Of a stretch of DNA of 64,000 bases, positions 5,800-54,637 are shown piece after piece. Origin of the DNA: Massilia frigida (GTDB taxonomy: Bacteria; Pseudomonadota; Gammaproteobacteria; Burkholderiales; Burkholderiaceae_D); contig NZ_WHJG01000013.1 of the NCBI RefSeq assembly GCF_011682175.1, positions 1-64,000 of the forward strand. The letters run 5' to 3'. The translations under genes were made by a program, and so were the position numbers. Each line of letters begins with the position of its first letter. Within the stretch, counting starts at the first letter, position 1. The notes under the pieces were generated by a model. It made no database searches, was not told the origin of the DNA, and worked only from the letters and a program-made list of their open reading frames with translations.

Positions 5800-7014
5800 T
5801 TATACTTTTTCGATGACCAGGGCAATGCCCTGCCCGACGCCGATGCACATCGTGCACAGCGCATAGCGCCCGCCGGTGCGGTGCAGCTGGTTGACGGCCG
5901 CCAGTACCAGGCGCGCGCCCGAGGCTCCCAGCGGATGGCCGATGGCAATCGCGCCGCCGTTCGGGTTCACATGGGCGGCGGCGTCGGCCAGGCCCAGGTC
6001 GCGCGTGACCGCCAGCCCCTGCGCGGCGAAAGCTTCATTGAGTTCGATCACATCCATCTGGCCGATGGACAGGCCCGTCATCGCCAGCACCTTTTTGGTC
6101 GCCGGCGACGGCCCGAAGCCCATGATGCGCGGCGCCAGGCCGGCCATGGCCATGCCGACGATGCGCGCGCGCGGCGTCAGGCCGAAGCGTTCGGCGGCGC
6201 TGCCGGAAGCAATCAGGATGGCGCAGGCGCCGTCGTTGATGCCGGAGGCGTTACCGGCGGTGACGCTGCCGTCGGGCGTGACCACGCCTTTGAGCTTGGC
6301 CAGCATCTCGATGCTGGTGTCGGGACGCGGATGTTCGTCGGTGTCGAACACGCGCGCGTCGCCCTTTTTCTGGGGGATGGTGACGGCGACGATTTCTTCC
6401 TTGAACACGCCGGCGGCATGGGCGGCGGCCCAGCGCTGCTGGCTGCGCAGGGCAAACGCATCCTGGTCGGCACGGCTGATGTTGAATTCCTTCGCCACGT
6501 TTTCGGCCGTTTCGGGCATTGAATCGATACCGTATTGTGCTTTCATGAGCGGGTTGATGAAGCGCCAGCCCATGGTCGTGTCTTCGATCTTGGCGGCGCG
6601 CGAAAACGCGCTGTCGGCCTTGCCCATGACGAAAGGCGCGCGCGTCATGCTTTCGACGCCGCCGGCGATGATCAGGTTCGCTTCGCCGGCCTTGATGGCG
6701 CGCGCGGCAATGCCGACGGCGTCCAGGCTGGAGCCGCACAGGCGGTTGATGGTGCTCGCCGGGACCTCGGGCGGCAGCCCGGCCAGCAGCGCAGCCATGC
6801 GGGCGACATTGCGGTTGTCTTCGCCGGCCTGGTTGGCGCAGCCGAAGTACAGGTCGTCCACGGCGGTCCAGTCCACGCCCGGATTGCGCGCAATCAGGGC
6901 GGCGATCGGCAGTGCCGCCAGGTCGTCGGCGCGCACGCCGGACAAGGAACCGCCGTAGCGGCCGAACGGGGTACGGATGGCGTCGCAGATAAAGGCGTCG
7001 GTCAGTTTGCTCAC
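5800..7014 (-). CDS. paaJ: 3-oxoadipyl-CoA / 3-oxo-5,6-dehydrosuberyl-CoA thiolase
   Basis: 404 residues from a GTG at 7014 that is preceded by AAGGAG at 5-nt spacing. A TTG six codons earlier lacks such a signal. The thiolase hallmarks are present: the acyl-enzyme cysteine in [11 protein letters not shown], the histidine in [17 protein letters not shown], and the second cysteine in [10 protein letters not shown]. The N-terminal [12 protein letters not shown] is typical of the PcaF/PaaJ branch. It cleaves C8 and C6 beta-keto acyl-CoAs to acetyl-CoA and, finally, succinyl-CoA. Its place between paaK and paaY supports the PaaJ role; it could also serve protocatechuate breakdown as PcaF. Confidence 0.93.
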
Positions 7015-7028
7015 AGGTGCTCCTTGGT

Positions 7029-8360
7029 TCAATTCGATGATTTCGGGCGCTGGTCGATCACGCGCCGGGCCTTGCCGGTCAGGGTGCGCTCGATGCCGTT
7101 GGCTGGCAGCAGGTTCACCCGCGTGGTCACGCCCACATAGGTCTTGATGCGGTGTTCAAGCTCGCGCGCCAGGGCCGCCACGGCGTCCTGCGACTCGGCG
7201 GGGTTCGCTGGCAAGTCGCGCAGTTCGGCCACCACATCGAGCTTGTCCAGATGGCCATCGCGCGAGACCAGCAGCTGGTAGTGCGGTGCCAGAAGCGGCA
7301 TCTGGAGGATCAGTTCTTCGATCTGGCTGGGGAATACGTTCACCCCGCGGATGATCAGCATATCGTCCGAGCGGCCGGTAATCTTGCCCATGCGGCGCAT
7401 CGCGCGCGAGGTCGGCGGCAGCAGGCGCGTCAGGTCGCGCGTGCGGTAACGGATGATCGGCAGCGCTTCCTTGGTGAGCGAGGTGAATACCAACTCACCC
7501 TCGGAGCCGTCGGGCAGCACTTCGCCGCTGTCCGGATCGATCACCTCGGGGTAGAAATGGTCTTCCCAGATCACCGGACCGTCCTTGCTCTCGATGCATT
7601 CGCTGGCCACGCCCGGCCCCATCACTTCGGACAGGCCGTAGATGTCGACCGCGTCGATGCCGGCGCGCCGTTCGATTTCACCGCGCATGGCATCGGTCCA
7701 CGGCTCGGCACCGAAAATGCCGACCTTCAGCGACGACGCCGCCGGATCGAGCCCCTGGCGCGTGAATTCCTCGATGATGTTCAACATGTACGACGGCGTG
7801 ACCATGATGATCTCGGGCTTGAAGTCGCAGATCAGCTGCACCTGCTTTTCGGTCTGCCCGACCGACATCGGGATCACGGTGCAGCCCAGCCGCTCGGCGC
7901 CGTAATGCGCGCCCAGCCCGCCGGTGAACAGGCCGTAGCCGTACGAGACGTGCACCATGTCGCCGGCACGCCCGCCGGCGGCGCGGATCGAGCGCGCCAC
8001 CACGTTGGCCCAGGTGTCGATATCCTTTTGCGTGTAGCCCACCACGGTCGCCTTGCCGGTGGTGCCGGACGAGGCGTGGATGCGCACCACCTTCTCGCGC
8101 GGGACCGCGAACAGGCCGAAGGGATAATTGTCGCGCAGGGTTTTCTTGTCGGTGAAGGGGAATTTGGCCAGGTCCGCCAGGGTGCGCAAGTCGTCCGGAT
8201 GCACGCCGGCGGCGTCGAACGCGGCGCGGTAGTGCGGCACGTTGTCGTAGGCGTGCCTGAGCGACCATTTCATGCGTTCGAGCTGCAACGCTTGCAGTTC
8301 GTCGCGGCTGGCGCGTTCGATTGCTTCGAGCTCGCCGGGAGCGGGCGTGCGCTGGACCAT
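7029..8360 (-). CDS. paaK: PaaK: phenylacetate-CoA ligase
   Basis: 443 residues from the ATG at 8360, with AAGGAG 6 nt upstream overlapping the paaI stop. This is an adenylate-forming enzyme of the PaaK type: the phosphate-binding loop HASSGTTGKATVVGYT, the IYGLSEVMGPGVA motif, and YRTRDLT followed by RSDDMLIIRGVNVFPSQIE near the C-terminal domain. It activates phenylacetate to phenylacetyl-CoA with ATP, the committing step. Phenylacetyl-CoA is the usual inducer that releases PaaX, so PaaK also generates the pathway's signal. Confidence 0.96.
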   Translation of the reverse strand: MVQRTPAPGELEAIERASRDELQALQLERMKWSLRHAYDNVPHYRAAFDAAGVHPDDLRTLADLAKFPFTDKKTLRDNYPFGLFAVPREKVVRIHASSGTTGKATVVGYTQKDIDTWANVVARSIRAAGGRAGDMVHVSYGYGLFTGGLGAHYGAERLGCTVIPMSVGQTEKQVQLICDFKPEIIMVTPSYMLNIIEEFTRQGLDPAASSLKVGIFGAEPWTDAMRGEIERRAGIDAVDIYGLSEVMGPGVASECIESKDGPVIWEDHFYPEVIDPDSGEVLPDGSEGELVFTSLTKEALPIIRYRTRDLTRLLPPTSRAMRRMGKITGRSDDMLIIRGVNVFPSQIEELILQMPLLAPHYQLLVSRDGHLDKLDVVAELRDLPANPAESQDAVAALARELEHRIKTYVGVTTRVNLLPANGIERTLTGKARRVIDQRPKSSN

Positions 8361-8370
8361 GGTGTTCTCC

Positions 8371-8808
8371 TTATTGCGCCAGTTCGGCCACGTTGCCGGC
8401 CACCCGATGCGATTTGCCACGCAACAGGGCGACCTTGCGGCCATCCTGGTTGGTGACCGTGACGTCGTAGACGCCGGTTTTCCCGGCCAATGCCTGTTCG
8501 GTGGCTTCGGCCGTCAACAGGTCGCCTTCGCGCCCCGGAGCCAGGTAATCGATGGTGCAGCCCGCGCCCACGGTGTTCAGGTTGTGCGAATTGCAGGCGA
8601 AGGCAAAGGCGCTGTCGGCCAGCATGAAGATGTAGCCGCCGTGGCAGGTCTGGTGGCCATTGAGCATATCGACGCGTACCGGCATCGTCATGCGCGCGTA
8701 GCCGGGACGGATTTCTGCGAGCAGCATGCCGAGCGCCTGGCTGGCGGGATCGCGCTCGAACATGGTTTTACCGGCCAGTTCGGCCAGCGCCTGAAGATCG
8801 TTATGCAT
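8371..8808 (-). CDS. paaI: PaaI: hydroxyphenylacetyl-CoA thioesterase
   Basis: 145 residues, a hot-dog fold thioesterase of the PaaI type. The diagnostic segment is HQTCHGGYIFMLADSAFAFACN around residues 53-74, which carries the catalytic Asp and the HGG loop. PaaI hydrolyses phenylacetyl-CoA derivatives that cannot proceed and so recovers CoA. It lies 3 nt after paaH and 10 nt before paaK. Confidence 0.93.
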   Translation of the reverse strand: MHNDLQALAELAGKTMFERDPASQALGMLLAEIRPGYARMTMPVRVDMLNGHQTCHGGYIFMLADSAFAFACNSHNLNTVGAGCTIDYLAPGREGDLLTAEATEQALAGKTGVYDVTVTNQDGRKVALLRGKSHRVAGNVAELAQ

Positions 8809-45274: not shown

Positions 45275-46885
45275 ATGACCTCAACACTTTCACGCCGCGG
45301 TTTTCTCACGCGCGGCGGCATCCTCGCCGGCGGCACGGCGCTCAATGGTTCGCTGCTGCTGTCGGCCTGCGGCAGCTCGGACTCCCCCGCCCCCGCCGTG
45401 ATCCCCAGCGACGCCGAACGGCCCAAGCTGCCCTCCGGGATCGGGTTCGGCGACGTGACGGGCGAGCGCGCCGTGATCTGGAGCCGCAGCGACCGCAATG
45501 CGCAAATGATCGTCGAATACGACACCAGCGAACGCTTCACCAACGCCAGCCGCATTGTCGGCCCGTATGCCACCGACGCCACCGATTTCACCTCGCGCGT
45601 CGACTTGTCCGGCCTGCCCGCTGGCCAGACCGTGTTCGTGCGCGTGAAGTACATCGACCCGGCCAACGGCCGCATCGAGAGCGAAGTGGTGGCGGGCCAG
45701 TTCCGCACCATGCCGCAGGCCGACGGCAAGCGCGCCATCCGCTTTCACTGGAGCGGCGACCAGGCCGGCCAGGGCTGGGGCATCAACACCGATTTCGGCG
45801 GCGTGCGCATGTACGAATCGATGCGCAAGCGCGATCCGGATTTCTTCATCCACAATGGCGACACCGTCTACGCGGACGGCCCGATCGCGGCCGAAGCGAA
45901 GGCTGAAAATGGCCAGATCTGGAAAAGCCTGGTCACCGAGGAAGTGAGCAAGGTCGCCGAAACGCTCAAGGAATTCCGCGGGCGTCATGCCTACAACACG
46001 CTGGACCTGAACTTTCGCAAATTCGCCGCGCAGGTGCCGCAGATCTGGCAATGGGACGACCACGAGGTCACCAACAACTACAGCGGCGCCAAGGACCTCT
46101 CGGCCGATGCGCGCTACAAGGAAAAGAACGTCGCCACCCTGGCCGAACGGGGCCGCCGCGCCTTCCTGGAATACGCGCCGATGCGCTATTACAAACAGGC
46201 CGAACCCCAGCGCATCTACCGCAGCATCGGCTACGGCCCCCTGCTCGACGTGTTCGTGATCGACATGCGCAGCTACCGTGGTCCCAACAGCACCAACCTG
46301 CAAAGCGAGGAAAACGCCAGTTCGGCCATCCTCGGTTCGGTCCAGGTGGACTGGCTGATCGCCGAACTGAAGGCCTCCAAGGCGACCTGGAAGGTCATCT
46401 CGTCGGACATGCCGATCGGGCTGGAGGTGGCCGACGGCAAGGATGCCAAGGGCGTGGCGATGTGGGAAGCGGTGGCCAACGGCGTGAGCGGCCCGGCCTC
46501 GGGGCGCGAGCTGGAAATGGCGCGTCTGCTCAAGGGCATCAAGACGGTGCCGAACGTGGTCTGGATCACCACCGACGTGCATTACTGCGCGGCCCACTAC
46601 TACGACCCGGCCAAGGCGCATTTCACCGACTTCGCACCGTTCTGGGAGTTCGTGGCAGGCCCGATGAATGCCGGCTCCTTCGGCCCGGGCAAACTCGATA
46701 TGACCTTCGGCCCGACCGAAGTGTTTTCCAAGTCGCCGCCGGTGCAGAATTCGTCGCCGTTTGCCGGCTACCAGTTCTTCGGCGAAGTCAATATCGACCC
46801 GCAATCGAAAGCGATGAAGGTCGAACTGCTGGACCTGAATGGGGTAACGCAGTTCAGCAAAACCCTGCCCGCAGCCGGAATTTAA
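45275..46885 (+). CDS. phoD: PhoD-like alkaline phosphatase/phosphodiesterase
   Basis: 536 residues, GGAG 6 nt before the ATG. A Tat signal (S-R-R-G-F-L-T-R) is followed by a lipobox-like LLLSAC-G, so the protein may be a Tat-exported lipoprotein. The N-terminal domain covers about residues 50-160. The metal site shows FFIHNGDTVYADGP, IWQWDDHEVTNNY and WITTDVHYCAAHYY. PhoD enzymes cleave phosphate mono- and diesters with Fe/Ca cofactors. The last four bases overlap the 3' end of the convergent exporter gene. Confidence 0.9.
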   Translation: MTSTLSRRGFLTRGGILAGGTALNGSLLLSACGSSDSPAPAVIPSDAERPKLPSGIGFGDVTGERAVIWSRSDRNAQMIVEYDTSERFTNASRIVGPYATDATDFTSRVDLSGLPAGQTVFVRVKYIDPANGRIESEVVAGQFRTMPQADGKRAIRFHWSGDQAGQGWGINTDFGGVRMYESMRKRDPDFFIHNGDTVYADGPIAAEAKAENGQIWKSLVTEEVSKVAETLKEFRGRHAYNTLDLNFRKFAAQVPQIWQWDDHEVTNNYSGAKDLSADARYKEKNVATLAERGRRAFLEYAPMRYYKQAEPQRIYRSIGYGPLLDVFVIDMRSYRGPNSTNLQSEENASSAILGSVQVDWLIAELKASKATWKVISSDMPIGLEVADGKDAKGVAMWEAVANGVSGPASGRELEMARLLKGIKTVPNVVWITTDVHYCAAHYYDPAKAHFTDFAPFWEFVAGPMNAGSFGPGKLDMTFGPTEVFSKSPPVQNSSPFAGYQFFGEVNIDPQSKAMKVELLDLNGVTQFSKTLPAAGI

Positions 46886-48639
46886 GCCGCCACCGGCTGC
46901 GCGCGCGCGAGCTGGTGACGCATCAGGTGGAAATACAAACCATCCTGCTGCGCCACCAGTTGCGCGTGCGTGCCCTGCTGCGCGAGGCGGCCCTGGTCGA
47001 GCACCAGGATGCGGTCGGCCTTGACGATGGTGGAAAAGCGGTGCGCGATGATGATCGTGGTGCGCCCTTGCATCAAGGTGTCGAGGGCGTGCTGGACCTG
47101 CAGTTCGCTGGCCGAGTCGAGGGCGCTGGTCGCTTCGTCGAGAATCAGGATGCGCGGATCGCGCAGCAGGGCGCGCGCAATCGCGATGCGCTGTTTCTGG
47201 CCGCCCGACAGTTGCGTGCCGTGCTCGCCGACCAACGTGTCGTAGCCGTCCGGGAAGCAACAAATGAAATCGTGGGCATAGGCCAAAGCCGCCGCTGCCT
47301 TCACCTCGTCCAGCGTCACTTCCCGTTCGGCGACTGCGAACGCGATGTTCTCGAAGATACTGCCCGAAAAAAGCGATGGCTCCTGCTCGACGATCGCCAG
47401 CTTGCTGCGGATGCCGGCCAGCGGCATGGCGCCCGCGTCGACGCCATCGAAGGAGATGCTGCCGCTGTCGGGCTGGTAAAAGCCCAGGATCAGGCTCGCG
47501 ATGGTCGACTTGCCGGCGCCGGACGCGCCGACCAATGCAATGGTCTCGCCGGCGGCGATGGCAAAATCGATGCCTTTGAGCGCTTGCGCGTCGGGCCGCT
47601 CGGGATACGAGAACACCACATCGTTGAAGGCCAGGTTGCCCTGCAAGCGCACCTCGCCGCCGGCCGCCGCTGGCGGCGCGCATTCGGCGTTGATCACCTC
47701 GAAAATCCATTCTGTGGCGCCGATGGTGCGCATCCACGCGTTCCAGAATTCGCCGATGGCGCCGGCCGCTTCGGTCACCATGCTGGCGTACAGGATGAAG
47801 GCGGTCAGGTCGCCCACCGACAGCGCGCCCTGGCCGATCAGGCGCGCGCCGAACCACAGGGTACCCAGCAGCGCCAGGTACACCAGGAAGGACGAACCGC
47901 CGCGAAACAGCGCGAACAGCGCGCTGCTCGACACCGACAGCGACAGCGCGTGTTCGGTCGCACCGGCATACCGGGTGCGCGCGGTGCGCTGCTGGCTGAA
48001 GGCGTGCACCAGGCGGATATTGGAAAAATGTTCGTGCGCGACCTTGGCGCAATCGGCCTGCCCGTCCTGCATCAGGCGCGCCTGCTTGCGGTACACCTTG
48101 CCGGTCACTTTGCCGAGGTACAGGGTCGCGGGCAAAAAGAACACCAGCATCAGGCACAGGACCGGCGAAATTGTCAGCAGCATCGCCACGCCGCCGATGA
48201 ACACGCACAGGCAGCGCAGCGATACCGCCATGCCCATGGTCAGGGTGTCGTGCAGGATTTCGACATCGGCCGTGAGGCGGTTATTCAGTTCGCCGACATG
48301 GTGCTTGTCGTAGAAGCGGATCGGCTGGTCGATCAGCGCCGCGTACAACTGGCGCCGGATGCGCGTGACGATCATGTAGCCGGTCGACTCGAAAATGTAA
48401 TAGCGCGCGGTGGCCGCCACGGCCTGCACCGCGAGCACGGCCAGCATGATCAGCGCCAGTGAGCTGAACCAGGCCATGTCCTTCTGCAAATTGATGTTAT
48501 CGATGAAGTACGACAGCGCCTTGGGATAAGCCAGCTGGATCAGCACCGTGACGGCCATGCATGCCAGCCCGGCGCACAGGCGCGCGGCAAAGGGGCGCAG
48601 CAGGCGCAGGCGGTCGAGATGGGGCGATGGCTGGCTCAC
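46882..48639 (-). CDS. ABC exporter (transmembrane + ATPase half-transporter), putative RiPP exporter
   Basis: 585 residues from a GTG at 48639 whose last bases form the upstream stop (GTGA overlap). An N-terminal six-helix ABC exporter domain is followed by the ATPase: Walker A GASGAGKST at about 371-379, signature LSGGQKQR, Walker B ILILDEATSALD and the switch His in IIAHRFS. It functions as a homodimer, like MsbA or bacteriocin exporters. There is no N-terminal C39 peptidase domain, so if it exports a peptide, the leader must be cut by another protease, for example the one encoded at 49720. Last gene of the cluster. Confidence 0.9.
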   Translation of the reverse strand: MSQPSPHLDRLRLLRPFAARLCAGLACMAVTVLIQLAYPKALSYFIDNINLQKDMAWFSSLALIMLAVLAVQAVAATARYYIFESTGYMIVTRIRRQLYAALIDQPIRFYDKHHVGELNNRLTADVEILHDTLTMGMAVSLRCLCVFIGGVAMLLTISPVLCLMLVFFLPATLYLGKVTGKVYRKQARLMQDGQADCAKVAHEHFSNIRLVHAFSQQRTARTRYAGATEHALSLSVSSSALFALFRGGSSFLVYLALLGTLWFGARLIGQGALSVGDLTAFILYASMVTEAAGAIGEFWNAWMRTIGATEWIFEVINAECAPPAAAGGEVRLQGNLAFNDVVFSYPERPDAQALKGIDFAIAAGETIALVGASGAGKSTIASLILGFYQPDSGSISFDGVDAGAMPLAGIRSKLAIVEQEPSLFSGSIFENIAFAVAEREVTLDEVKAAAALAYAHDFICCFPDGYDTLVGEHGTQLSGGQKQRIAIARALLRDPRILILDEATSALDSASELQVQHALDTLMQGRTTIIIAHRFSTIVKADRILVLDQGRLAQQGTHAQLVAQQDGLYFHLMRHQLARAQPVAA

Positions 48640-49205
48640 GCGCTGGCCTCGCTGGCGATCCGCACCTCGTCCATCTGTTCGCAAAAACTGCGCCAGTCGT
48701 CATCGCCGATCATGCCGCGCGCGTCGAGCGTGCCGGCGGCGCTGACGAACAGGTACGATGGCGAGGACATCACGGGATTGAGCATCTCGTAGTCGGCGCC
48801 GGCCACGCGCAGGGTGCTGCCAGCCAGCGAAGTCGCCCGCAGGAAGCGGCGCAGGCGCCATGCGGGTTCGATGCTGACCAGCCAGAGCGCCAGGCCGGCG
48901 TCGCGCGCCAGCGGCGCCAGGCGCTCGATCTCCGCCAGCTTCTGGCGGCATTTGGGGCAGGCGCTGGAGAGGAACAGCAACACCATGGGCTGACCGGCGT
49001 CGCCCGCCGCGAGTGGCGCGCCGCCGGCCAGCAGCTTGCCGGAAAAGGCGGGAACAGCTTCGCCCACCGGCAGCAGCGACGCCGCCTTGGCGGCCGCGCT
49101 CAGGCTATTGACGACTTTCGACAGATGCAGCGACAGCTTCAGGTTCAGGGCCACGCTCAGTGCCAGCAGCAGCAGGATGAGGGCCAGGACGTCGCTATCC
49201 ATCAT
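48636..49205 (-). CDS. MauD/TlpA-like thioredoxin-fold protein
   Basis: 189 residues from the ATG at 49205 (ATGA overlap); a second ATG at 49202 is equally possible. One N-terminal membrane helix (DVLALILLLLALSVALNL) is followed by a thioredoxin fold with Cys83-Pro-Lys-Cys86 in LLFLSSACPKCRQKLAEI and a cis-Pro-like SSPSYLFVS. This resembles MauD of methylamine dehydrogenase assembly, a periplasmic thiol oxidoreductase or isomerase. No mau structural genes are present, so the target is probably the cysteine-containing peptide encoded at 51685. Confidence 0.85.
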   Translation of the reverse strand: MMDSDVLALILLLLALSVALNLKLSLHLSKVVNSLSAAAKAASLLPVGEAVPAFSGKLLAGGAPLAAGDAGQPMVLLFLSSACPKCRQKLAEIERLAPLARDAGLALWLVSIEPAWRLRRFLRATSLAGSTLRVAGADYEMLNPVMSSPSYLFVSAAGTLDARGMIGDDDWRSFCEQMDEVRIASEASA

Positions 49206-49723
49206 GCGCTCCGCTTCAGGGCGCGGGCCAGATCGTGGAAGCCGATAGCGCCGATCGTGGCGGTCAGCGCCAGCGCGGCGGCCAGCACGCTCTCTTTCTT
49301 GCCGAAGGCGGCGCCGCCGGAAAAAGCGAGGCAGACGCCAATGCTGGCGATGATCAAGCCATTGCGCAGCAAATCGAAGCCGGACACCGGCCGTTCGCTC
49401 TCGCCGAAGCAGCTGCATTTGACGCTGCCTTCCACCACGTAGCGATAGCCGACCAGCGCCGTTACCAGCACGAACAGCACCAGGGCGCCAGCCATGCCGG
49501 CGCGGCCGGTGCCGCCGCCGGCCAGGATCAGGGCGGCCAGCAGCGCTTCGGCCGCGACCACCGCGGGCGCCAGCATCGTGGCCGCCGGCCGGGGCAGGCC
49601 GAAGGAGTCGACCAGGTTATCGGCGAACGCGGCCAGCGTGCGCAATTTGCCGAGGGCGGCGCACGCGAGCAAAAAAGCGGTGAAGAAGCGGATGATCTCC
49701 GCGAGGTAGGGCGCGCTGCTCAT
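49202..49723 (-). CDS. MauE/DoxX-like redox-associated membrane protein
   Basis: 173 residues, four hydrophobic helices (around residues 9-25, 50-70, 77-92 and 145-165). The conserved Cys103-Ser-Cys105-Phe-Gly motif (KCSCFGE) lies in the loop after helix 3, as in MauE. MauE works with MauD to make disulfides in methylamine dehydrogenase. It is joined to the MauD-like gene and to the protease gene by 4-nt overlaps. It probably passes electrons between quinones or the cytoplasm and the thioredoxin-fold partner; that step is an inference. Confidence 0.85.
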   Translation of the reverse strand: MSSAPYLAEIIRFFTAFLLACAALGKLRTLAAFADNLVDSFGLPRPAATMLAPAVVAAEALLAALILAGGGTGRAGMAGALVLFVLVTALVGYRYVVEGSVKCSCFGESERPVSGFDLLRNGLIIASIGVCLAFSGGAAFGKKESVLAAALALTATIGAIGFHDLARALKRSA

Positions 49724-50610
49724 GGCGAGACGGGGAGCTGGCTCCAGCGCGGCAAAAAGCCGCCGCTGCGGCGCTTGCGCAGCATGGCGCCGTCGCGCGT
49801 GGCCAGCAAGGCATCGTTCCACGGTGCATCGGTCGATTCGCGCAGGCCGCCGCCGACGATCGTTTGCAGGACGCGCGAAATGGCCCACGCGCACTCCTCG
49901 ACATCGGGTTCGCGCCGGATGGCGAGGCCGAGTCTTGCCAGCTCTTCGCTGGTGAGCGCGTAGTTGTGCGAGTAGTAGCCGAACATCAGTTCCTTGACAA
50001 CGTCCTGGCGGAACGTCTCGGTTTTGCCAGGCAGCTGGAAGCGAAGCAGCTCTTCGCCGATCTGCATCACTTCCTGGGTGGAGCGGTAGAACGCGGTCAG
50101 GGTCGGCGGGAACACACTGTTACACAGAAGGCCCAGCGATTGCAGGCGCGCCTCGTCGGAGCTGACCCCGAACCATTCCTCGCTCATGGCGCCGAACATC
50201 TTGATGTCCTGGCACGAGAACGAGGAGGCGGGGCTGTCCTCATCGCTGCCGCCATGCAGGTGGGGATCGATCGGCGAGAACATGGCCAGGTCGCCGGCGA
50301 TGATTTCGTCGGCAGCCAGTGCCAGGATGGTGCCCGATGACTCGCAGTGATACGGCACGATGAAGCCCAGGTGGTCGGTGAACTGGCGCAGCAGCAGCGC
50401 GATGCGGCGCGCCGCGTTGACGATGCCGCCACGGCATTGCAGCACCACGTCCAGGCGCGGCACGCGGCCGATGCCGCGGCACTGGTCATACAAGGCGGGC
50501 AGGATCTCCATATCGATATCGGATGCGCAGAACACCAGGACGCGGCTTTTTCGCAGCGCTTCGATCCCCTTGATCTGGACCTGCATGGCAAAACGGTCTG
50601 GCTGGATCAT
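49720..50610 (-). CDS. SDH-type ClpP-fold serine protease, candidate leader peptidase
   Basis: 296 residues from the ATG at 50610, which forms an ATGA overlap with the ligase stop; a GTG two codons earlier is possible. It matches the serine dehydrogenase proteinase/SppA-like branch of the ClpP superfamily: VVLQCRGGIVNAARRIALLL, then CESSGTILALAADEIIAG with the candidate nucleophile at Ser91/Ser92, and MFSPIDPHL. No signal peptide; cytoplasmic. Its place between an ATP-grasp peptide ligase and a redox/export set suggests it trims the precursor. Weak point: many SDH proteins in other contexts have no known substrate. Confidence 0.82.
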   Translation of the reverse strand: MIQPDRFAMQVQIKGIEALRKSRVLVFCASDIDMEILPALYDQCRGIGRVPRLDVVLQCRGGIVNAARRIALLLRQFTDHLGFIVPYHCESSGTILALAADEIIAGDLAMFSPIDPHLHGGSDEDSPASSFSCQDIKMFGAMSEEWFGVSSDEARLQSLGLLCNSVFPPTLTAFYRSTQEVMQIGEELLRFQLPGKTETFRQDVVKELMFGYYSHNYALTSEELARLGLAIRREPDVEECAWAISRVLQTIVGGGLRESTDAPWNDALLATRDGAMLRKRRSGGFLPRWSQLPVSP

Positions 50611-51605
50611 GCGCACCCCTCAATGAGTCGGTCGGCCAGTGCGTCGAGCAGCGCGAATTCGGGAATCAACTGCTCGATATAGAGGAACTGGCCGACCGGA
50701 TTATTTTCGAGAAAAACGAGGTCCTGGCCCGGCGTGACGATCAGGTCCAGCGCGCTGTAAGGCAGGTTATAGCTGCGCACGAATGCCAGGCAGCGCTCGC
50801 GCACCGCGTCCGGCAAGACGGTCGCCTCGTAGCCGATAGCGGCCGACATGTCGCGCGAATCGATGGCGGTGCGCTGGTCGTCCTGCGAATGGATTTTGGC
50901 GGCGAACACGCGCTCGCCGATGATGGTCACGCGCAGTTCGTATTGTTTGGGGATGTACTGCTGAAAATGGCAAGCCAGTTCGCCGACCGATTCCAGCTGT
51001 TCGAGCATGGCCTGGTCGACCAGGGTGGTGCCGACGCCGGCGTTCACGCGGTCGGCGTCGGCCAGGCCGTCGCCACCGAGGTTGGGGCTGGACAATGCCT
51101 TGAAAATCATGGGACCGTCAAAACTGGCGCGGAAGGCTTTCACCTCGGCCGGCGAATTGGTCGTGAGCGAGGCGGGAATGAGGAAACCCATGCGCGCGGC
51201 GCGCTGCAATTGCTCGCCCTTCCACATGGCGCCACGCAGGGCCAGCGGATGGCTCATCCAGAAACAATCGAGGGTGTAGAGCATGCCGAACAGGGATTGT
51301 TCGGTTTCGGCCCTGGCGTAGATGCGTTCCTGGATGCCGAGGTCGGGGCTGAGAAAAGAGAAGTCGGCCGGCTTGCGGCTCCAGACCGCGCCCACCTCGT
51401 CCAGGTCCAGCGTCACGCCCGTGGGCAGGTGGCGGATCCACTGGCGCAGCACGCCCCCGGCAAACCACTGGGACGTTTGATAGTCGCGCGGGAAGGCGTC
51501 CAGATCGAGACGGAAGGCCGCGCATCCCTTGGCCTGCAGGATGGGAATGAGCAGGTCGACGTGCAGGTCGGCGCTGTTACTGACAATCAAAACCTTGTTT
51601 GCCAT
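50607..51605 (-). CDS. MvdD/MvdC-family ATP-grasp peptide ligase
   Basis: 332 residues from the ATG at 51605. The N-terminal pre-ATP-grasp region (VLIVSNSADLHVDLLIPIL, VWSRKPADF) and the ATP-grasp core match RiPP maturases of the microviridin ligase type: WKGEQLQRAARMGFLIPASL, TNSPAEVKAF, the lysine segment GPMIFKALSS, YELRVTIIGERVFAAKIHSQ, and the Mg-binding FLENNPVGQF. Such enzymes phosphorylate Asp or Glu side chains of a precursor and close ester or amide links to Ser, Thr or Lys. The gene is 79 nt after a 58-codon precursor-like gene and has only a weak Shine-Dalgarno. Confidence 0.88.
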   Translation of the reverse strand: MANKVLIVSNSADLHVDLLIPILQAKGCAAFRLDLDAFPRDYQTSQWFAGGVLRQWIRHLPTGVTLDLDEVGAVWSRKPADFSFLSPDLGIQERIYARAETEQSLFGMLYTLDCFWMSHPLALRGAMWKGEQLQRAARMGFLIPASLTTNSPAEVKAFRASFDGPMIFKALSSPNLGGDGLADADRVNAGVGTTLVDQAMLEQLESVGELACHFQQYIPKQYELRVTIIGERVFAAKIHSQDDQRTAIDSRDMSAAIGYEATVLPDAVRERCLAFVRSYNLPYSALDLIVTPGQDLVFLENNPVGQFLYIEQLIPEFALLDALADRLIEGCA

Positions 51606-51639
51606 ATGCCAATGAAAAGAGGGATGCGGGGTGCGGACG

Positions 51640-51670
51640 AAAAAAAGCCCTGCGATGAGCAAGGCTTTTT
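51640..51670 (-). terminator. Terminator-like attenuator between precursor and ligase genes
   Basis: On the minus strand, AAAAAGCCTTGC pairs with GCAGGGCTTTTT (51659-51670 with 51642-51653) over 12 positions including one G-T pair, with a 5-nt loop, followed by a run of seven T. This is a good intrinsic terminator inside the operon, 14 nt after the precursor stop. Partial read-through would give much precursor and little enzyme, a common arrangement in RiPP clusters. Confidence 0.85.
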
Positions 51671-51684
51671 ATCCAGCGAATCGG

Positions 51685-51861
51685 TCAGCAATAGATACCG
51701 TTGTCGCGACCTGGGCGGCGGTCGCCGCGCGCATCAGGACCGGAGCAACCGGCGGTGGACACGCCTTCGCGCGCTTGCCACTGTGGTGCGGGTTTCGCTT
51801 CCTTGGCTTTTTTCTCGGCCAGCTTGAACGCGAACGTTTTCATTCCATTTTGATTTTTCAT
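51685..51861 (-). CDS. Putative RiPP precursor peptide, 58 residues
   Basis: A small gene on the minus strand, ATG at 51861, TGA at 51685-51687. AGAAGGA lies 7 nt before the ATG, and a good promoter lies upstream. The N-terminal half is a basic, helix-prone leader: MKTFAFKLAEKKAKEAKP from residue 7, whose TFAFKLAE loosely recalls the F-rich helix recognised by graspetide ligases. The C-terminal half is a different, Gly-rich region with Ser35, Thr36 and Ser40, Asp43, Asp47 and Asp53, and two cysteines, Cys39 and the very last residue Cys58. Hydroxyl/carboxyl pairs suit ATP-grasp ester formation; the cysteines suit a disulfide made by the MauE/MauD-like pair. The product is not known to me. Confidence 0.78.
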   Translation of the reverse strand: MKNQNGMKTFAFKLAEKKAKEAKPAPQWQAREGVSTAGCSGPDARGDRRPGRDNGIYC

Positions 51862-51925
51862 TTTCGTATCCTTCTAAAAATAGCGAAATTCAATCGAACG
51901 GTATACCACCTTGGGTGGCAGAGAA

Positions 51926-51954
51926 ATGCTAGTCGCATGCCAACCTAGCGTCAA
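51926..51954 (-). promoter_or_regulatory. Sigma-70 promoter of the peptide operon
   Basis: On the minus strand, -35 TTGACG (51949-51954) and -10 TAGCAT (51926-51931) are separated by exactly 17 bp. The predicted 5' leader is about 55-60 nt and contains a small CCACC-caa-GGTGG hairpin at 51906-51918. Upstream of the -35, ATGCAATTTGCAT at 51977-51989 is a perfect inverted repeat that could bind a regulator. Confidence 0.72.
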
Positions 51955-52014
51955 GATAAAAATTATTGTTTGTGCAATGCAATTTGCATAAGTGAATGGA
52001 GCTCGTGTATCGCT

Positions 52015-52037
52015 CTTGCACGGGCGGAACGTGCAAG
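52015..52037 (-). terminator. Hairpin after the deoxyinosine glycosylase gene
   Basis: CTTGCAC at 52015-52021 pairs with GTGCAAG at 52031-52037 across a 9-nt loop. It begins 15 nt after the glycosylase stop on the minus strand. There is no T-run, so it is a modest terminator candidate that separates this gene from the peptide operon downstream. Confidence 0.5.
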
Positions 52038-52052
52038 CCCGGTCGCGCTGGT

Positions 52053-52589
52053 CTATTTCAATAGATCATCACGCAACGTCTTCCACACTATCAATTTTTC
52101 CATATACGGTGCCGTATACGCCGGGCTGCTCGACGGCAAGGACACGATACGGTAGCGCCGCGCGTGTTCGCCCAGCGCTTTCATGCCCAGCCGCGCCGCC
52201 GTACCGCCATTGAACGCAATCGTCCGGAGCTGCGGCAAGCTGTCCACCAATCCCACCAGATCGTTACCGACCTGGCCGCGAATCTGGCTGTCCAGACTGC
52301 CTTCGCGCGTGGCCTGCGCCACCACATCCCACAGGCCGATCCCCTGCGCCAGCAGCGCTTGCAGGCGCGCATCGTAGTCCAGCGCCACCAGGTCGACCCC
52401 GGTGGCTTCCGACATCAGCATCCAGAACCGGTTCTGGCGGTTGCCATAATATTGCTGCTGCGCCAGCGAGCGTTCGCCCGGCAGGCTGCCGAGCACCAGG
52501 ATGCGGGTGTGCGCGTCGACCACCGGCGCGAAACAGCGCTTGAGCGGTGCCGCGTCCGGGTCGGCCGTGGAAGACAGGAAATCGTTCAT
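52053..52589 (-). CDS. DNA-deoxyinosine glycosylase (uracil-DNA glycosylase superfamily)
   Basis: 178 residues from the ATG at 52589. Conserved features: ILVLGSLPGERSLAQQQYYGNRQNRFW near residue 32, which forms the active-site loop with the YYGN-x-x-N-x-F-W pattern of the hypoxanthine-DNA glycosylase family, GIGLWDVV, FNGGTAA, and LPSSSPAYT near the end. It removes deaminated bases from DNA. Monocistronic, divergent from the Mpo1-like gene. Confidence 0.87.
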   Translation of the reverse strand: MNDFLSSTADPDAAPLKRCFAPVVDAHTRILVLGSLPGERSLAQQQYYGNRQNRFWMLMSEATGVDLVALDYDARLQALLAQGIGLWDVVAQATREGSLDSQIRGQVGNDLVGLVDSLPQLRTIAFNGGTAARLGMKALGEHARRYRIVSLPSSSPAYTAPYMEKLIVWKTLRDDLLK

Positions 52590-52669
52590 GGCAGCGATTC
52601 TAGCAGGGCGCCAGACGGGTGTAGAATCGTCCGGCAAGCCAACCACAACAACAAAATCCGGAGACTCCC

Positions 52670-53116
52670 ATGGACCAAGCTACCCAGCCGCGCGCCATCG
52701 ATACCCTGCTCGCCAAATATAGCGAGAGCCACCTGAACCATACCAATGAAGTGATCCACTTCGTCTGCGTGCCCGTGATCGTGTTCACCCTGCTCGGGAT
52801 TGTCTGGTGGATCCACCCGTTCGCGGCCGTGGCCGTCACCTTGCTGTCGCTATGCTATTACTTCAAATTGTCGAAGCCGTTCGCGGCCGGCATGCTGGCG
52901 ATGTCGGCCGTGATGCTGGGCCTGCTCAGCCTGATGCCGCCCGCCACCGTGCTGCCGCTGTCGCTGGCCATCTTCGTGCTGGCATGGATCGGCCAGTTTA
53001 TCGGCCACAAGATCGAAGGCAAAAAACCCTCGTTCTTCGACGACCTGCGCTTCCTGCTGATCGGTCCGCTGTTCGTGCTGAGCTTCCTGTACCGCCGCCT
53101 GCACCTCGCGTGGTAG
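52670..53116 (+). CDS. Mpo1-like (DUF962) integral membrane protein
   Basis: 148 residues with four hydrophobic segments. It shows YSESHLNHTNEVIHFVCVPVI and WIGQFIGHKIEGKKPSFFDDLRFLLIGPLF, the His-rich pattern of the Mpo1/YGL010w family. The yeast member is an iron-dependent dioxygenase acting on 2-hydroxy fatty acids. The His set near both ends of the membrane part is retained, so the activity is plausible. A CCGGAG signal precedes the ATG. Confidence 0.88.
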   Translation: MDQATQPRAIDTLLAKYSESHLNHTNEVIHFVCVPVIVFTLLGIVWWIHPFAAVAVTLLSLCYYFKLSKPFAAGMLAMSAVMLGLLSLMPPATVLPLSLAIFVLAWIGQFIGHKIEGKKPSFFDDLRFLLIGPLFVLSFLYRRLHLAW

Positions 53117-53186
53117 ACAGGTTGGCGCGCTGACGCATTTATGGCGATGACGGGCAGGAAATTGAGAATGCCCATATACTTTCCGC

Positions 53187-54149
53187 ATGTCATCTCCACT
53201 CCTCTTCGCGATCGCGGCCCTGATCTGGGGCTCCACTTTTTTTGCCATCACCTTGCAGCTGGGCGAAGTCGCGCCGGCAGTGTCGGTGGTGTACCGCTTC
53301 GGCTTGGCGGCAGCCACCCTGTTTGCCTGGTGCCTGCTGCGCGGCGACAAGCTGCGCCTGCCGTGGCGCGCCCAGCGCTGGGTGATGCTGCAGGGATTCT
53401 TCACTTTTGCCCTGTCGTATGTGTGCACTTACGGGTCCGAGCAATACCTGGTGTCGGGCCTGGTGGCGGTACTGTTCGCGCTGATGGTGTTCTGGACTCC
53501 GATCTGCAGCCGCATCGCCTTCGGCACGCCGATTTCCTGGCGCACCTGGGCCGCCGGCATGATTGCCATCGCCGGCGTGACGATGCTGTTCTACCACTCG
53601 ATTGCCGGCGCCTGGCAAGACATCGCCGGCGGCGGCAGCGGCCACTTCCTGCTCGGCCTGGCGCTGGCCCTGGTCGCCACCATTGCCAGCTCGGCCGGCA
53701 CGGTGGTGGTGGCCAAGGTGCGCGAGCAATCGACGAACCTGATGCTGACCATGGCCTGGTCGATGTTCTGGGGCACCTCGATGGTGGCCCTCTGGGCGCT
53801 TGCGACCGGCCAGCAATTCGTGCTGCCCGCCGCGCCGCGCTACTGGATGGCACTGCTCTACCTGTCGCTGTTCGGCTCGGTCATCGCCTTCAACGCCTAC
53901 TTCACCCTGATCAACCGCATCGGCTCGCAAAAAGCCGTGTACATCGGCGTGGTCACGCCCGTCATTTCGGTGTTGCTGTCGATCCAGCTGGAACATTACC
54001 GGCCCGGCCCGGTCGAATGGCTGGGCATGGTCGTCTGCCTGGCCAGCGTCGCCTGGGCGCTGCGTGCGCCCGCGCCCGCCGCCGCATCCCCCGCTTCCAC
54101 CCAACCCGCGCCGGACGCCTGCCTGGCCGCCATTCCCGAGGTTCCATGA
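53187..54149 (+). CDS. EamA (DMT superfamily) transporter
   Basis: 320 residues with ten hydrophobic helices in two EamA repeats: IAALIWGSTFFAITLQLGEV at the N-terminus and a second set beginning near ALALVATIASSAGTVV. The C-terminal SVLLSIQLEHYRPGPVEWLGM matches the end of the second repeat. Probably exports amino acids or other small metabolites. It overlaps the next gene (ATGA), so the two are likely linked in function or expression. Confidence 0.88.
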   Translation: MSSPLLFAIAALIWGSTFFAITLQLGEVAPAVSVVYRFGLAAATLFAWCLLRGDKLRLPWRAQRWVMLQGFFTFALSYVCTYGSEQYLVSGLVAVLFALMVFWTPICSRIAFGTPISWRTWAAGMIAIAGVTMLFYHSIAGAWQDIAGGGSGHFLLGLALALVATIASSAGTVVVAKVREQSTNLMLTMAWSMFWGTSMVALWALATGQQFVLPAAPRYWMALLYLSLFGSVIAFNAYFTLINRIGSQKAVYIGVVTPVISVLLSIQLEHYRPGPVEWLGMVVCLASVAWALRAPAPAAASPASTQPAPDACLAAIPEVP

Positions 54150-54637
54150 ATTCCGACAACACCTTCACCATCCGCCCGGCGCAAGCGTCCGACGTCGCCC
54201 ATATTTACGGCATGATCGTCGAACTGGCCGTGTTCGAGAAACTCGAACACCTGGTCGTGGCCACCGAAGCGCAACTGCATGACGCCCTGTTCGGCGCGCG
54301 TCCCTCCTGCGAAGCGCTGGTCGGCGTGGAACATGGCGAGGTGGCCTGTTTCGCCTTGTTCTTCCACAATTTCTCCACCTTCCTCACGCGCAAGGGCCTG
54401 TACCTGGAAGACCTGTACGTCAAGCAAGTACACCGTGGAAAAGGTTACGGCAAACAAATGCTCGGCGCGCTGGCGCAACTGGCGGTGGAACGCCAGTGCG
54501 GCCGCTTCGAATGGTCGGTGCTCGACTGGAATGAAAACGCCATCAACTTTTACAAAAGCGTGGGTGCGCAACTCTTGCCGGACTGGCGTATCTGCCGCGT
54601 CGACGGCGACGCCCTCGGCAAGCTTGCAGCGTCCTGA
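54146..54637 (+). CDS. GNAT family N-acetyltransferase
   Basis: 163 residues from the ATG at 54146, overlapping the EamA stop by 4 nt. GNAT motif A is clear: LEDLYVKQVHRGKGYGKQMLGALAQLA, with R-G-K-G-Y-G binding the acetyl-CoA pyrophosphate, and then VLDWNENAINFYKSVGA. It resembles diamine or amino-acid acetyltransferases (GxxAxF-type N-terminus). Together with the exporter it may detoxify an amine; that is an inference. Confidence 0.88.
   Translation: MNSDNTFTIRPAQASDVAHIYGMIVELAVFEKLEHLVVATEAQLHDALFGARPSCEALVGVEHGEVACFALFFHNFSTFLTRKGLYLEDLYVKQVHRGKGYGKQMLGALAQLAVERQCGRFEWSVLDWNENAINFYKSVGAQLLPDWRICRVDGDALGKLAAS

Follow-up and report, generated by a model that had tools for sequence, protein, structure and literature searches.

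Introduction

What does an operon make when it sets a short peptide gene beside a ligase related to ring-closing enzymes, a serine protease and a thiol-redox pair? The question is raised by a 64,000-nucleotide stretch of Massilia frigida DNA (contig NZ_WHJG01000013.1, positions 1 to 64,000; hereafter the window), in which six genes on the minus strand at 46882-51861 encode, in order, a peptide, an ATP-grasp ligase, an SDH-type protease, a MauE-like protein, a MauD-like protein and an ABC (ATP-binding cassette) exporter. A preliminary description of the window gave the same six genes, place and strand, and also four 4-nt overlaps chaining the last five genes; these are read in the sequence as ATGA for ligase/protease (50607-50610), protease/MauE (49720-49723) and MauE/MauD (49202-49205) and as GTGA for MauD/ABC (48636-48639), the first of them presuming that the protease begins at the ATG at 50610 (the list of open reading frames (ORFs) starts it two codons upstream, at GTG 50616). 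The answer proposed here, which we think probable, is that the operon makes a graspetide-like RiPP (ribosomally synthesized and post-translationally modified peptide) in which a constant clasp of one ester and one disulfide closes a variable loop; its chemical steps, cleavage site, order of events and function we infer from gene content, recurrence, conservation and predicted folds. Papers are cited by PubMed Central number, in each case for the accessible part of their text.

Results

The precursor is a real gene

Comparison of the window peptide with six close orthologues gives nonsynonymous divergences (dN) of 0.007-0.088 and synonymous divergences (dS) of 0.165-0.488, the weakest contrast being that of the pair with locus L003, which has both the highest dN (0.088) and the lowest dS (0.165) and in which the L003 core differs. 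When tblastn was run with the window peptide on 22 loci that had been drawn from a collection of 84,980 species with the ligase as the sole query, one to four homologues were found upstream of the ligase in every one. Since dN lies below dS and all 22 loci hold homologues, the 58-codon peptide is, on this comparative evidence, a genuine gene; neither operons without a small peptide nor a peptide unconserved between species, the two outcomes that the preliminary description had held against itself, came to light. Against NCBIfam and Pfam, no family was matched by more than two of the 52 precursors compared (best E value 0.0056).

The window's own genome has a single match each for peptide, ligase and protease. 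Four close relatives (L012, L013, L014 and L026) have two precursors and the window and L003 only the upstream type, so that precursor copy number seems to turn over fast; a search of window positions 49001-54500 for a remnant of the relatives' second precursor matched well only the precursor already known. At L065 (genome G662, of the window's family) ten tandem precursor genes at 6444-8641 stand before one ligase, and three of the ten end in one extra Ala after the final Cys. A plus-strand ORF of L075 (1019-1219) is a degenerate relative of the precursors, with neither FAF nor a final Cys, lying beside intact ones, and is likely a decayed paralogue.

A constant frame around a variable core

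The precursor alignment A1 (52 rows) was gathered with a pattern that required F[AC]F, W, GC[ST] and a terminal Cys; the FAF, W, GC[ST] and end-Cys columns are therefore invariant partly by selection. The pattern did not require Asp53, Gly55, Arg31 or Ala37 (window numbering), and a pattern-free tblastn search with the window peptide recovered the same precursors. The profile search behind the core count required neither Ser/Thr nor Asp, although such a profile still favors its own residues. The 76 distinct cores counted below remain after removal of two false matches (L035, at the same place as L069 and L072, with 22 bits and no ligase in the 15 kb fetched; and L079, which lacks the core frame) and of two unparsed rows (L075, degenerate and without a final Cys; and L083, with GGC replacing AGC or SGC), and after an Ala following the last Cys had been trimmed from three cores, all from the same genome. 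L080 (genome G1151) is a precursor-profile match at E 1e-3.

The frame common to these cores is C-[S/T]-x(n)-D-x-G-x-x-C, found complete (C[ST]..D.G..C) in 75 of the 76. Residue 2 is Ser or Thr without exception (28 Ser, 48 Thr); both Cys and an Asp at position -6, counted from the C-terminus, are likewise present in 76/76, Gly at -4 in 75/76, and Tyr, Trp or Phe at -2 in 68/76. Exactly two Cys occur in 73 of 78 cores, a count that includes the two false matches. Cores are 18-33 residues long, with a loop of 12-27 residues when counted from residue 2 to -6, and it is here that the sequences diverge: mean identity is 0.25 for core interiors and 0.50 for leaders over the whole set, and 0.36 and 0.60, respectively, among the ten paralogues of one genome.

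The leader carries the motif FAF[KR]LA, with FAF in all 52 rows of A1; in the literature text searched, neither FAFKLA nor FAFRLA was matched. An AlphaFold2 (AF2) model of the precursor has a helix at residues 10-20 and hardly more beyond, with a low mean confidence score (predicted local distance difference test, pLDDT) of 60.6, as expected for a leader followed by an unmodified core. By analogy with the PFFARFL leader of microviridins (PMC8939145), FAFKLAEKKAK is likely the helix recognized by the ligase.

The gene set recurs with the ligase

Searches with profiles derived from the window genes and from their matches find the protease in 21 of the 22 ligase-selected loci and MauE, MauD and the exporter in 19 each; the set is incomplete in L021, which is taken up below, and in L022 and L023, where the contig ends after part of the protease, and the MauE match of L029 is weak (34 bits). 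The preliminary description had predicted that the gene set would recur in Oxalobacteraceae with a conserved core; with precursors in 22/22, the protease in 21 and the remaining genes in 19, the result goes beyond that prediction. By record title the hosts of these 22 loci are Massilia, Janthinobacterium, Pseudoduganella, Lysobacter, Lysobacteraceae, Phenylobacterium, Brevundimonas, Hellea, Pseudoalteromonas, Altererythrobacter and an alphaproteobacterium without closer placement, which between them span beta-, gamma- and alphaproteobacteria.

A larger set of 32 loci adds those reached by the precursor profile, in which the presence of a precursor is by construction, and excludes L021 with its duplicate L098, L022 and L023. 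The protease is present in all 32, MauE and MauD in 30 each and the exporter in 28, there being no exporter within the fetched stretch of L101, L102, L104 and L105. Most loci have the genes in the same order; the protease is reversed in L029, and in L033 MauD-MauE is moved away and reversed. At eight loci (L027, L028, L032, L096, L097, L099, L100 and L103) the exporter does not come last but is transcribed divergently, from the other strand, ahead of the precursors. Three genomes of the Lysobacter family each hold two loci with different core styles, namely L096 with L021/L098 (G724), L100 with L101 (G1169) and L103 with L104 (G1095), and in each pair an exporter lies in the fetched stretch of only one locus.

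The distribution of the cluster looks patchy. Counts rest on matches at E 1e-3 to the precursor profile A1, with 15 to 32 candidates scored per genome, and are lower bounds. The profile matches at least 24 of 294 genomes of the window's family (its own included), in 5 of 44 genera; at least 2 of 398 genomes across the phylum, which are its own and one weak match treated as false; at least 3 of 249 in the order to which the Phenylobacterium genome belongs, among them that genome and the same false match; and at least 7 of 198 in the family that includes the Lysobacter genome, among them that genome and two weak matches that were not accepted.

Enzymes of the operon

The ligase matches PF21068, the MvdD pre-ATP-grasp domain (E 1e-11, 45.4 bits, cut-off 27), and aligns over residues 5-331 (E 8.2e-42) to PDB 5ig9, recorded as an ATP grasp ligase, which we take to be MdnC. 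The closest named species by ligase are Massilia (86-88% identity), and genomes of the same genus have the ligase in 6 of 16 cases with identities up to 92%. In a tree of 36 family ligases and eight controls (tgmB, MvdC, MvdD, one each from Deinococcus, Burkholderia, Nonomuraea and Pedobacter, and one same-order ligase) a branch with support of 98/97 parts the family from the controls; as judged from this tree, the ligases of the cluster form their own clade relative to the eight controls, which were hand-picked from plasmid matches and relatives and make a small control. In the eight control loci tblastn at E 0.01 matched neither precursor nor protease, MauE or MauD, and gave a weak ABC match in two. 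In the plasmid database PLSDB the ligase matches 79 records, with identities below 60% among the matches listed, and the protease matches 24, none of them covering 80% of the protein; among the matches listed for the two proteins no member of the present family was found. A distant ATP-grasp ligase on a Pedobacter plasmid (L114, 2998-6891) has lasso-peptide B2 and asparagine-synthase-like genes nearby, possibly a mixed RiPP locus.

The protease matches PF01972 (SDH_protease) with E 3.9e-16 and 59.3 bits, above the cut-off of 31.3. Comparison of folds matches it to the 1510-N, SppA and ClpP proteases at 10-16% identity, while by sequence no solved structure is matched at E 0.1. A GG loop, Ser91 (just before a helix) and His215 are invariant across 33 protease rows. 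Because no peptidase domain was matched by Pfam in the ABC protein, in which ABC_membrane and ABC_tran lie far over their cut-offs, the SDH protein is the only peptidase among the six genes, and it is the best candidate for leader removal.

The MauE-like protein matches PF07291 (E 1e-21, 78 bits, cut-off 27) and keeps its CxCFG motif in 18/18 rows. The MauD-like protein matches AhpC-TSA (E 1.4e-6, 28.7 bits, cut-off 26) and keeps both Cys of CxxC in 19/19 rows; since it reaches only 20.8 bits against the equivalog TIGR02661, whose cut-off is 188.6, it is MauD-like but not the MauD of methylamine dehydrogenase. MauE and MauD have been studied in the maturation of that enzyme (PMC7794033), and in the present operon they are the best candidates for disulfide formation.

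Proposed maturation pathway

In the proposed pathway the ligase would bind the FAFKLA leader helix and, with ATP, join the side chain of Ser/Thr2 to that of Asp(-6) (Ser40 and Asp53 in the window), giving one macrolactone (-18 Da). Still in the cytoplasm, the SDH-type ClpP-fold protease would then remove the leader, the likeliest cut being just behind the conserved Ala-Gly, which would leave Cys as the first residue; the ABC exporter would carry the peptide out, and MauD (CxxC) with MauE (CxC) would oxidize Cys39 and Cys58 to a disulfide (-2 Da). The window product would be a 20-residue peptide with a predicted monoisotopic mass of 2143.939 (linear 2163.965). The two Cys would flank the ester, just outside it, such that one constant eight-residue ring (C-S/T and D-x-G-x-aromatic-C) contains both ester and disulfide and the interior from Ser/Thr2 to Asp(-6) is free to vary.

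The preliminary description had spoken of ester or amide rings. The comparative evidence bears out its reading of a graspetide-like operon that includes a protease and a thiol-redox pair, and its ring chemistry is narrowed here to a single ester because 63 of 78 cores (the two false matches included) have no Lys and because Ser/Thr2 and Asp(-6) are the sole fully kept donor and acceptor. If the ligase acts like its relatives, the ester between them is nearly forced.

Counterevidence and alternative explanations

Several observations weigh against this proposal. Four NCBIfam peptide-maturase models match the ligase, each with a score under its curated cut-off (TIGR04184, 195.9 bits against 475; TIGR04185, 144 against 425; TIGR04187, 207.2 against 350; TIGR04192, 69.3 against 230). 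In the ligase tree the long branches of the controls adjoin the family, and the program warns of false joins; the control loci are short stretches of 3.5-14.9 kb. The Phhx(1,2)h motif published for about half of known graspetide precursors (PMC8939145) is mostly missing, because Pro precedes FAF in only 1 of 52 leaders. L021 has precursors and ligase only, with 3.6 kb of sequence past the ligase, and the same genome holds a full second locus (L096). To the same side belong the extra reactive residues of the cores and the loci with two Cys but no redox pair, both taken up below, as well as a different role for the protease.

That different role is self-resistance, or that of a homologue of the peptide's target, with a housekeeping protease cutting the leader. 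Proteases near graspetides may indeed be maturation or resistance genes, and microviridins and plesiocin inhibit serine proteases (both PMC13097080). A resistance copy should, however, look nearer to a housekeeping protease, by our inference, and the SDH protein belongs to a distinct subfamily that accompanies the ligase in all but one of the ligase-selected loci. Its profile A3 at E 1e-30 matches at least 3 of 299 phylum genomes, its own included (at most 8 candidates scored per genome), and the two others reach 112 and 120 bits, where intact cluster members score 379-472 and a member cut by a contig end 347. Among 14 other cluster-bearing genomes A3 matches once, at the cluster, in 12, the exceptions being G726, which carries the cluster twice, and G727, where two weak matches come in addition. 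Together with the lack of a matched peptidase domain in the ABC protein, these results make a resistance or target role rather unlikely.

A second alternative is a multi-ring graspetide, with two or more esters or amides that also use interior Asp/Glu, the disulfide being secondary. Characterized synthetases typically install several linkages (PMC13097080), and the residues are at hand: a further Asp/Glu is available in 75 of 76 cores, and a further Ser/Thr/Lys in 67 of 76, so that additional rings are possible; two further Asp lie in the window core, and Asp(-6) is the sole Asp/Glu in just 1 of 76. On the donor side, by contrast, Ser/Thr2 is the only Ser/Thr/Lys of the core in nine of 76, the window's among them (the leader side not being counted), and at no other tabulated position, whether N- or C-anchored, does the share of Asp/Glu or of Ser/Thr/Lys exceed 0.41. 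We regard several rings as unlikely. The window peptide, whose core offers only one donor, is for that reason the cleanest test peptide.

MauD and MauE could also act on the exporter or on some other envelope protein rather than on the peptide. L097 and L102, which have long flanks, have neither protein in the fetched stretch even in a relaxed search, and their precursors retain both Cys. Against this stand the presence of the pair in nearly all of the larger set, including L033, where it is split off from the other genes, and the two-Cys composition of most cores; action elsewhere thus seems to us improbable, to about the same degree as extra rings.

Least likely is that the ATP-grasp enzyme forms no side-chain ring and instead attaches an amino acid or small molecule, as the pheganomycin enzyme ligates a peptide to another group (PMC7794033, PMC8939145), or makes a thioester with one of the conserved core Cys, as graspetide enzymes can on changed substrates (PMC12291112), because either reaction leaves the conserved Ser/Thr2 and Asp(-6) unexplained in a system whose ligase aligns to the ring-closing MdnC and has the MvdD pre-ATP-grasp domain.

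Discussion

Relation to known peptides

With the graspetides (microviridin MdnC and MvdD; tgmB) the operon has in common an MvdD domain, a full-length MdnC-like ligase, a small upstream precursor, a hydrophobic leader motif (here mostly without the preceding Pro) and donor and acceptor side chains in the core. Two defining features of graspetides are present, an MvdD/MdnC-type ligase with its precursor and a conserved Ser/Thr donor and Asp acceptor; the third, a side-chain lactone or lactam in the product, is predicted. It differs in having FAF[KR]LA and not PFFARFL as leader motif, one conserved donor and one conserved acceptor, two terminal Cys, a ligase below the NCBIfam cut-offs, and an added SDH protease, MauE and MauD. 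Graspetides comprise 24 earlier and 19 new groups, several of them with proteases (PMC13097080), and the operon family may already hold a group number. It does not belong with the microviridins (group 1), which have the leader PFFARFL (PMC8939145) and two ligases, MvdC and MvdD; here the leader is different and the operon has one ligase, with one match in the genome at E 1e-5. Nor does it belong with the graspimiditides (group 13), no isoaspartyl methyltransferase being found among the six genes and the six flanking genes scanned. Group 9 is similar in that over half of it is said to contain a serine proteinase (PMC13097080), and identity with it is argued against because its motifs fall in a precursor cluster tied to an actinobacterial ligase branch (PMC8939145).

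Among other peptides, fuscimiditide (ThfA/ThfB) is similar in its cross-linked stem and change-tolerant loop (PMC12291112) but has two cross-linking pairs and a tailoring enzyme, ThfM (PMC13003496), and the accessible descriptions mention no MauE/MauD or SDH protease (PMC12291112, PMC13003496). The decRiPPter candidates of Streptomyces have MauE, and in one case MauD, beside candidate precursors; these precursors have at least eight Cys, and an SDH protease is not named in the accessible text (PMC7794033). Stryphnines, knottins of sponges, contain a Ser-Glu side-chain ester within a knottin, a likeness of plan only, since they are animal products for which no ATP-grasp enzyme was found (PMC13418204). 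The 1510-N, SppA and ClpP proteases share the fold of the SDH protein, which differs from them in its low identity and its RiPP operon context.

Many new graspetide precursors have conserved cysteines (PMC8939145). The accessible main text of the graspetide survey PMC13097080 does not mention thioredoxin, SDH or disulfide, that of PMC8939145 does not mention MauE, thioredoxin, disulfide, Massilia or Janthinobacterium, and that of the leader-peptidase review PMC10885120 does not name ClpP, SppA, S49 or SDH. A Lysobacter precursor cluster, 859, is named in PMC8939145. In the open-access main texts covered, no description of the present operon was found.

It is possible, and we put this forward tentatively, that these operons constitute a separate RiPP class of Proteobacteria, in which an eight-residue clasp of ester and disulfide, a hypervariable loop of 12-27 residues, a dedicated SDH leader peptidase and up to ten precursors per enzyme set amount to a natural form of loop display. 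If the proposed chemistry is right, one ester between two fixed residues and a disulfide suffice to close peptides of very different sequence and length. In that case such a closure would be a loop-displaying scaffold both simple and open to test, a substrate could be named for one subfamily of the SDH-type ClpP-fold proteases, and MauE/MauD would be linked to peptide maturation. As to function, protease inhibition and antibiosis are guesses by analogy.

Operon layout and neighboring genes

The features of the operon are collected in Table 1. By our own looser criterion, 23 of 36 loci, the window included, have a hairpin and T-tract separating the ligase from the last precursor; in 40 dinucleotide shuffles the mean was 5.7 loci and the maximum 11. 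The window sequence folds as such a hairpin, which a standard terminator scan did not list. A leaky terminator that yields more peptide than enzyme would be the natural reading.

Table 1. Positions of the precursor, its parts and the downstream genes in the window
Feature	Position	Strand	Basis
Precursor peptide gene, 58 codons, ATG start	51685..51861	-	AGAAGGA ribosome-binding-like site upstream; homologues; dN<dS
Leader motif FAFKLAEKKAK, residues 10-20; likely ligase-recognition role by analogy	51802..51834	-	Alignment A1; AF2 helix (low confidence)
Predicted core CSGPDARGDRRPGRDNGIYC, residues 39-58: Cys39, Ser40, Asp53, Gly55, Cys58; putative core start AG|C	51688..51747	-	Core conservation
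Hairpin and T-tract between precursor and ligase; putative leaky terminator	51640..51670	-	Folding
MdnC/MvdD-like ATP-grasp ligase, 332 aa	50607..51605	-	PF21068; PDB 5ig9
SDH-type ClpP-fold serine protease, 296 aa from ATG; Ser91 codon 50338-50340	49720..50610	-	PF01972
MauE-like membrane protein, 173 aa, CxCFG motif (C103, C105)	49202..49723	-	PF07291; motif invariance
MauD/TlpA-like thioredoxin-fold protein, 189 aa, CxxC (C83, C86)	48636..49205	-	AhpC-TSA; Cys invariance
ABC exporter, 585 aa, transmembrane and ATPase domains, no C39 peptidase domain matched	46882..48639	-	ABC_membrane, ABC_tran

A reading of the operon as a defense system was rejected, there being no PADLOC match to ligase, protease, MauE or MauD at E 1e-5; at that threshold the ABC protein alone was matched, to mad3 and mad8. 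Convergent with the operon is a plus-strand gene for a PhoD-like phosphatase (45275-46885; PF09423, E 2.8e-90), whose last four bases (46882-46885) overlap the end of the exporter gene.

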